From Chloroflexales bacterium ZM16-3 (GTDB lineage: Bacteria > Chloroflexota > Chloroflexia > Chloroflexales > Chloroflexaceae), in the NCBI GenBank assembly GCA_004138175.2, contig RYFE02000006.1, positions 62,001 through 126,000 on the forward strand: DNA of 64,000 nucleotides, given 5' to 3'. The position numbers and the translations under genes were made by a program. Under the pieces are notes generated by a model that was not told where the DNA came from, did not search any database, and saw only the letters and a list, made by a program, of their open reading frames with translations. This document shows, in pieces, positions 49,937 through 59,257 of this stretch. Position 1 is the first letter of the stretch. Every line of letters begins with the position of its first letter.

Positions 49937-54535
<4,599 letters not shown>

Positions 54536-54541
54536 TGAGGC

Positions 54542-55246
54542 TCACTCCTCTGGAGGTAAATAATCTGCAAAGCGCAGACGCATTACCTCTGTGATAGTGC
54601 CGCTATGGGGCCGTTTACGCGGCTGCCAGTCCAGAAACATAGCTGCGATGGCAGCCTTGCGGTCAAGGGCGAGACCTGGATTTTCCACATAGAGCCATGC
54701 GGCCAGGCACTTCGCCCGTATAGTGCTCCACTTCAGGTACCAGAGCGCACGATTTGCGACAACATTGGGTGCCGGAATACCTGTCTGTTTCTCAATTGCT
54801 ACGGCCATATCTGTGAGAAGTTGCCGTGATCCCGAGTAGATCTGAAGAACTGGTCGATCACCATTCCAGGCTAGTGTTCCATCGCCATCGACGAAGCCAC
54901 GGACAAAGTGGACGAGTAGATCTGTTGGCACGGTTGGGAAGCCGATCACGTTCGACTTATTCGGAATTCCGCCCAGGGCTAACAGATCGTAGTACATCTC
55001 CTTGCTACAGAACTCAATCCCGTAGCACTCGCTCTTTGCAGTAATCCGCCGATAGTCGAACTTTTCCCCGATGGCTTCGGCGATCAGACCTAGATGATCA
55101 CGGTCGATGCTGGCTATTTCGATATTGTGGGCACCGGTGTTGCGCTTGATACGCATATACCCATCAGCCCACCAGTACCCAAGCACATAGGCCATCTCAG
55201 CCGACCAGACCCGGAAGAACTCGACGGTGCGTGCGACGCGGGGCAT
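54542..55246 (-). CDS. Free-standing LAGLIDADG homing endonuclease
   Basis: 234 residues from ATG 55246, chosen because GGGGAG lies five bases upstream; ATG 55309 would add 21 residues. Two LAGLIDADG helices are visible, VLGYWWADGYM (about 18-28) and HFVRGFVDGDGTL (about 113-125), each with the metal-binding Asp, separated by about 95 residues. This is the single-chain two-motif architecture. Base composition is clearly more AT-rich than rpoB and rpoC. It lies in the rpoB-rpoC spacer on the operon strand, and its final codons (CCAGAGGAGTGA) provide the rpoC ribosome site, six bases between stop and rpoC ATG. The cleavage target is unknown; no intron or intein surrounds it. Confidence 0.9.
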   Translation of the reverse strand: MPRVARTVEFFRVWSAEMAYVLGYWWADGYMRIKRNTGAHNIEIASIDRDHLGLIAEAIGEKFDYRRITAKSECYGIEFCSKEMYYDLLALGGIPNKSNVIGFPTVPTDLLVHFVRGFVDGDGTLAWNGDRPVLQIYSGSRQLLTDMAVAIEKQTGIPAPNVVANRALWYLKWSTIRAKCLAAWLYVENPGLALDRKAAIAAMFLDWQPRKRPHSGTITEVMRLRFADYLPPEE

Positions 55247-55282
55247 GGCGTCTCCCCAGTAGAACGTGTGTACTGGAGAGAT

Positions 55283-55317
55283 GATACCCGGTTTCAGGTT
55301 GTCTGTCAACCGGTATC
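55283..55317. promoter_or_regulatory. Inverted repeat upstream of the homing endonuclease
   Basis: GATACCCGGTT (55283-55293) pairs with AACCGGTATC (55308-55317) with one bulge, about 40 bases before the preferred start. Possible translational control or end of the inserted segment. Confidence 0.5.
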
Positions 55318-55359
55318 GGATATATTAGTAGTCCGTCGGGCGACCACTTTTCAAAGGGA

Positions 55360-55402: not shown

Positions 55403-59089
<3,687 letters not shown>

Positions 59090-59257
59090 ACGCACCTCTC
59101 CTCAGTCGTTGCAACCAGAGACGGCGGCCGCTGGCCGCTATTTTCTGGCGCGTACAGGCTTCCGGCAGGCGGAAAACAGAAATCGCCGGTCATCGGCGCT
59201 CGCCCTTCGGGGGCGGCCTCAGAACTGGCGGGGGGGCAGAGTGAAACGGATATTCGC

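Follow-up and report, generated by a model that had tools for sequence, protein, structure and literature searches.

The control of free-standing homing endonuclease genes has been detailed for T4-like phages, and that account describes the T4 genes for I-TevI, I-TevII, and I-TevIII, T4 segB, and mobE of Aeh1 as having their own promoter, with a hairpin that hides the Shine-Dalgarno sequence (SD) on long transcripts (PMC2988022). It also states that T4 endonuclease genes embed promoters of essential genes, an arrangement said to favor their retention (PMC2988022).

Here we analyze a 64,000-nt stretch of the genome of Chloroflexales bacterium ZM16-3 (contig RYFE02000006.1, positions 62,001 to 126,000; hereafter the window), in which a LAGLIDADG gene lies between rpoB and rpoC. 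Our literature search on LAGLIDADG or homing endonucleases at rpoB-rpoC in Chloroflexi, which covered titles and abstract openings and few subscription journals, returned no description of this locus. Our overall reading, to which we assign a probability of about 0.68, is that the spacer holds an old free-standing homing endonuclease gene that has its own promoter, is silenced by a hairpin on readthrough RNA, overlaps the rpoC SD, and exchanges its core.

A LAGLIDADG gene in the rpoB-rpoC spacer

The gene occupies positions 54542 to 55246 of the minus strand, running from an ATG to a TGA and encoding 234 aa; the assignment draws on the conserved ATG, a Pfam PF14528 match, the predicted fold, and purifying selection. 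It is flanked by rpoC (49937 to 54535) and rpoB (55403 to 59095), both identified from the open reading frame list and Pfam. All three genes are on the minus strand, so that the endonuclease gene follows the operon direction, as an earlier note on this DNA had described. That note had placed the start at a TTG at 55309 (ORF 54542-55309), which is wrong. The ATG at 55246 is common to the relatives, with most of the predicted promoter upstream of it in the leader comparison, and the TTG is the first half of TTGACA, the -35 box of that promoter (55304 to 55309, minus strand), which was found by the promoter scan and is conserved in relatives. Codons 1-21 of the longer frame are thus promoter and leader.

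The gene is single-copy in the window's genome. Rfam gave 0 matches within the 64-kb window, and Pfam reported no intein or splicing domain for the endonuclease ORF, rpoB, or rpoC. An intron- or intein-encoded endonuclease is rejected on these grounds, and the earlier statement that the gene has neither around it stands. Intact homologues at the identical junction in three families, together with dN/dS values of 0.09-0.19 for the four closely related Herpetosiphon pairs examined, which indicate purifying selection, establish that this is a real gene and more than a chance ORF.

The protein resembles a two-unit homing endonuclease

The protein carries the motifs YVLGYWWADG and FVRGFVDGDG and matches Pfam LAGLIDADG_3 (PF14528; E 3e-9), as do all 17 aligned copies. 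Asp28, Asp120, and Asp122 are invariant in these 17 copies, the catalytic pair being Asp28 and Asp122. Modeling of both motif helices, which the earlier note had proposed as a check, gave an AlphaFold2 structure (pLDDT 86.5) with two LAGLIDADG units, each predicted to be alpha-beta-beta-alpha-beta-beta-alpha. The best PDB matches from Foldseek are homing endonucleases (I-Tsp061I, intein endonucleases, and I-DmoI), and WhiA is also among the matches. A profile search of PDB sequences returned only I-Tsp061I, matched weakly (E 0.047), and one other, unrelated-looking chain (E 0.46); NCBIfam returned no family for the endonuclease. With its own start and stop codons, the gene fits the earlier description of a free-standing, two-motif LAGLIDADG endonuclease. 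Judged by sequence and model, the protein is a two-unit LAGLIDADG homing endonuclease, which would be expected to cleave DNA and to home. No cleavage site could be placed in the rpoB-rpoC spacers compared, whose variability prevents the 5′ edge of the insertion from being defined at single-base resolution.

The gene is also more AT-rich than its neighbors, as had been noted, with a GC content of 54.4% compared to 64.7% for the rpoC part and 64.9% for the rpoB part. The corresponding GC3 values are 59.4, 91.4, and 89.4, and GC3 is lower in the endonuclease gene than in both neighbors in 18/18 genomes with an intact copy.

We considered the hypothesis that the protein has ceased to act as a mobile endonuclease and now serves the host, for instance by binding DNA to regulate rpoC or rpoBC, much as WhiA arose from the LAGLIDADG fold. 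The strong purifying selection, the appearance of WhiA in the Foldseek list, and the fixed position in the RNA polymerase operon fit such a role. However, the catalytic Asp residues are invariant, Pfam finds only LAGLIDADG_3 with no WhiA match or added domain, the gene has been lost repeatedly in healthy lineages, and the DNA-recognition half is highly variable. We regard recruitment as very improbable and continue to read the protein as a homing endonuclease.

Intact, decaying, and empty junctions among relatives

We sampled 61 genomes, namely the window's own and 60 relatives from its order, three of which (G004, G002, and G005) are assigned to the same genus. The rpoB-rpoC junction was readable in 58; in G003 and G015 the rpoC hits were incomplete and lay close to or at the end of a contig, and no proper rpoC hit was obtained for G012. 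These 58 junctions comprise 18 intact copies, 1 interrupted copy (G021), 11 clear remnants, 4 probable tail remnants, and 24 clean spacers, the last being the empty sites that the earlier note had suggested looking for in relatives. Intact copies are found at this junction in three families (f1, f3, and f4).

Remnants in seven genomes are recognizable at the protein level (G027, G016, G023, G030, G008, G051, and G022), scoring 20-111 bits compared to 6.6 for the best of 20 shuffles per spacer. In four more (G009, G024, G031, and G036), a frame-broken tail scores 31-37 with the SD masked; the clean spacers of the order that were scored reach -15 or less, G011, G058, and G059 having been left out of tail scoring for want of a GGAG. 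We note that the tail score suits f1-type tails only: the interrupted G021 scores -12.7 and the remnant G016 -12.5, and among the f3 and f4 copies G057 scores 12.6, G044 1.8, and the others below -19. Genus g9, which we take to be Chloroflexus, has a probable tail in four genomes and in 7/7 after the addition of three more (masked tail scores -4.0 to 7.0; shuffle p 1.5e-4 to 2.4e-3 in all seven), with an SD-to-ATG spacing of 9 nt. On this sequence evidence, the g9 spacers probably hold tail remnants of the endonuclease gene.

A search of 82 genomes of the order, in which junctions were read for only part of the newly included genomes, added one intact copy at the same junction (G405). In a phylum-wide sample of 301 genomes, no match from outside the order was stronger than E 1.1e-20. 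Phage and viral-contig relatives of the endonuclease are only 24-35% identical among the matches listed, and we rejected a phage source for this reason.

One relative of the endonuclease, at approximately 39-43% identity, stands alone at another locus in G060 (L099:2144-2917, also L149), where it adjoins a 632-aa, 5′-nucleotidase-like gene; the rpoB-rpoC spacer of that genome is clean. On contig C10 of G039 (L076, L077; family f4, genus g21), two rpoC-like genes lie approximately 11 kb apart, one of them directly after rpoB. Many clean spacers contain a strong hairpin just after rpoB, conserved in place and not in sequence, and the endonuclease gene lies downstream of this hairpin.

History of insertion and loss

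On a host tree built from rpoB and rpoC (77 taxa, rooted with other orders, some inner branches weak), empty, decaying, and intact alleles are found side by side. Within the clade containing g9, g1, g4, g5, g6, g12, g13, G026, and G021, every member carries the gene or some vestige of it. The gene is also found in f3, beside the clean G059, and in f4 (G045 and G405, with a trace in G051), and G022 has a separate trace. What remains differs between lineages: approximately 12 first and 62 last codons in G027, 36 first codons followed by AGGAGTGAGCCCA before the ATG in G016, and 33-47 last codons in g4. At least five losses are separate (g4, g5, g12, G022, and G051), or six if g9 is included.

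We propose that an early member of the Chloroflexales acquired the LAGLIDADG endonuclease gene in its rpoB-rpoC spacer, directly upstream of the rpoC SD. The distribution can be explained by one old insertion with many losses or by a few insertions at the same position, and we favor the first. Clean lineages lie between carriers (G059 in f3, g23 in f4, and 6/6 readable f2 junctions), which makes several independent insertions in f1, f3, and f4 possible. The f3 leaders differ, and the G057 copy is 73% identical to the window's compared to 61-64% for the other f3 copies. A single f3 clade is rejected in the core (p 0.0016) and even in the flank tree (p-AU 0.033), a hint of whole-gene transfer between families. 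However, f1, f3, and f4 share a YLP-(x)-stop-GAG terminus adjacent to rpoC, f1 and f4 have promoter residues in common, and the traces in G022 and G051 extend the earlier range of the gene. Repeated insertion or whole-gene transfer seems to us somewhat unlikely, and we retain one old insertion as the favored history.

The insertion would then be ancient. The earlier note had set its invader against an ORF conserved vertically with normal composition; the gene does appear old, with ends that look vertical, but its composition is abnormal and its core has passed laterally.

A predicted promoter and leader hairpin

The endonuclease gene is predicted to carry its own promoter. In the promoter scan, the TTGACA -35 box and a TATCAT -10 box (55281 to 55286, minus strand; also supported by comparison of relatives) match the consensus at 11 of 12 positions with 17-nt spacing. 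Genome-wide, this is the only site with fewer than 3 mismatches to the motif, and three other sites have 3. The promoter is present in 13 of the 21 leaders compared, and eight f3 leaders are without the element.

RNA folding predicts a leader hairpin (55251 to 55281, minus strand) that includes the SD of the gene, GGGGAG (55252 to 55257, minus strand), as identified by leader comparison and folding. On readthrough RNA, the probability that this SD is unpaired does not exceed 0.004 in 11 of the 13 promoter-bearing leaders; the G010 and G045 leaders do not hide it. Shuffling the stretch from the -10 box to the SD reaches the observed value in at most 2.5% of 200 shuffles for each of the 11 leaders. 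The stem letters vary by lineage with pairing kept (CTCCAGTA/TACTGGAG, CTCCATAGAAC/GTTCTATGGAG, and CTCCCAGCACA/TGTGCTGGGAG), as seen without a formal covariation count.

The canonical spacing from the -10 hexamer to the transcription start is 7 nt, and a +1 taken at this distance falls near 55274, inside the hairpin. When folding begins at the inferred +1, the probability of an unpaired SD is 0.26-0.71 in 10 of the 11 leaders, the SD of G021 being mostly paired (0.07). Starts placed 5-9 nt after the -10 box give a similar picture, with the exception of G034 (0.20 at 5 nt). The predicted pattern of an SD that is hidden and then freed holds in 10 of the 13 promoter-bearing leaders, the exceptions being G010, G045, and G021.

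These predictions suggest that on the long rpoB-rpoC transcript the SD would fold into the hairpin, leaving the gene nearly silent there. We hypothesize that the gene's own transcript, by starting inside the 5′ arm of the hairpin, would free the SD, such that most of the protein would derive from that transcript.

A near-palindrome surrounds the promoter (55285-55322 in the window, also in L050 and L064, and TATCCGGTTTCGGT...ACCGGAACCGGATA in G010) and is a possible operator; because G002 and G005 do not have its left arm, we do not press this interpretation. Separately, G027 (L065) and G016 (L054) have lost most of the gene and kept the promoter and leader hairpin upstream of rpoC, and the promoter might now serve rpoC.

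Overlap with the rpoC Shine-Dalgarno sequence

The sequence GAGGAG at 54545 to 54550 (minus strand) supplies the final two sense codons of the endonuclease gene, and no other GGAG-type site lies immediately ahead of rpoC. The earlier note was right to see the rpoC ribosome site here, and it had further proposed that the gene was fixed by capturing this initiation signal.

In the nine intact f1 copies, the last codons contain the rpoC SD; one of these, G026, no longer has the TGA and terminates at a TAA overlapping the rpoC ATG. The other ends are arranged differently: G044 and G057 have TAG GAG at the equivalent place with the stop over the signal, and in G045, G405, and Herpetosiphon the stop comes before the signal. 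The window's clade has CAG or GAG in place of the TAG, followed by GAG TGA, and a change from TAG to CAG or GAG in the f1 clade would explain the overlap, pointing to a signal that is rpoC's own. The endonuclease stop may first have overlapped the rpoC SD (TAGGAG), with the TAG-to-CAG/GAG change in the Oscillochloris-like clade then drawing the signal into the reading frame.

The earlier note had also asked whether rpoC at empty sites has its own SD. An SD-like word is present in 25/25 empty spacers, 22 of which have GGAG, placed 6 nt before the ATG in 19 of the 22. Spacing is likewise 6 nt in G044, G045, G022, and G051.

According to the alternative, the invader captured or brought the rpoC initiation signal, and the overlap keeps the gene fixed in the operon. 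The location of GAGGAG within the gene's last codons is consistent with this, as are the GGAG kept before rpoC in 11/11 clear remnants and 7/7 g9 genomes and the G016 deletion, which ends right at the rpoC signal. Its best argument, which we do not explain away, is that spacing is 7-9 nt in 26/26 of the clade of g9 and the Oscillochloris-like genomes compared to 6 nt in most empty spacers with GGAG; this is compatible with a signal that came with the gene. On the other side, the stop lies before or over the signal in f3, f4, and G022, the 6-nt spacing is found in the four genomes named above, and the at least five separate losses, by deletion or decay that spared the signal, mean that the gene is not locked in. 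Capture thus appears distinctly unlikely, and the SD is probably rpoC's own. The overlap limits the end-points of deletions, and deletions of the gene would survive if the rpoC signal is spared.

A mosaic DNA-recognition core

Compared to G041 and G055, the copy in Herpetosiphon G038 is 84-96% identical over the first 100 nt and 90-98% over the last 200 nt; in the middle of the gene, identity is 42-82% (50-nt windows). RNA polymerase is nearly identical among these species. Between the window and G004, identity is 82-100% in rpoB and rpoC windows compared to 44-84% in endonuclease core windows, and rpoC dS is 0.11 whereas core dS is saturated.

Trees of the core and the flanks conflict. In the core tree, G001, G041, G055, G044, and G045, which share the motif PRKS, form one group (support 98/97) that is rejected in the flank tree (p-AU 5e-5). 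The flank tree unites Herpetosiphon (g20; 100/99), whereas the core rejects its monophyly (p 0.025). For genus g1, too, monophyly is rejected by the core (p 2e-5), but the flank does not reject it (p 0.21). Such conflict is what exchange with divergent copies would produce, and not what divergence in place would produce.

The most variable residues, approximately 33-80, correspond in the model to strands and a helix of the first unit, and LAGLIDADG enzymes touch DNA at this region. Purifying selection is found within both core types. We conclude from these alignments and trees that the DNA-recognition core has been exchanged between lineages, the gene ends staying with the host. The gene would then persist through selection on the protein and core exchange with divergent copies, rather than through lock-in.

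Implications and comparison with known systems

The locus points to a homing endonuclease gene long resident in the operon of two essential bacterial genes. Because intact, decaying, and empty alleles coexist in one order, which includes cultured Herpetosiphon, the invasion-decay-loss cycle, the burden on the essential operon, and a possible repeated origin of the T4 promoter-hairpin switch can all be tested directly. The mosaic core provides natural enzyme pairs with the same ends and different DNA-contact parts. Tentatively, and at rather less than even odds, we suggest that a long-resident endonuclease evolved a promoter-in-hairpin switch independently of T4-like phages, together with a swappable core of at least two divergent types that passes between species and families while the ends, bound to the leader and to the rpoC SD, remain with the host. 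If true, the target specificity of the enzyme would keep shifting without the gene leaving its site.

The window's genome (G000) also encodes inteins. A SpoVR-like gene has an in-frame insert (contig C84, 61261-61461; L119), approximately 540 bases ahead of the window's first position; the insert has both Intein_splicing and LAGLIDADG_3 matches and is an intein. An insert in a ribonucleotide reductase gene (contig C41, 23519-23806; L118) matches LAGLIDADG_3, with a sub-threshold Intein_splicing match, and is likely an intein. Both share LAGLIDADG_3 with the endonuclease gene, but they sit in frame in host proteins with clear or weak splicing matches, whereas the endonuclease gene has its own start, stop, and predicted promoter.

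The monomeric LAGLIDADG enzymes I-DmoI and I-Tsp061I share the two-unit fold and both motif acids with the modeled protein. In contrast to these archaeal, intron-encoded enzymes, the gene is free-standing, and identity is approximately 14-19% in the Foldseek alignments. LAGLIDADG endonucleases of Brevibacillus, Staphylococcus, and other phages are distant full-length relatives (26.7-31.2% identity among the matches listed); none of the matches listed is close, and they show no sign of a recent phage source.

The T4 and Aeromonas phage endonucleases belong to other families (GIY-YIG or HNH), and the likeness to them would be one of mechanism, by analogy and not homology. Unlike the phage genes, this is a LAGLIDADG gene on a bacterial chromosome, its embedded signal is an SD and not a promoter, and its control is predicted. 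The likeness extends to a position inside an essential transcription unit and in the same direction, to signals of essential neighbors embedded in the endonuclease gene, and, here by prediction, to an own transcript that lacks the 5′ arm of the SD-hiding hairpin (PMC2988022).
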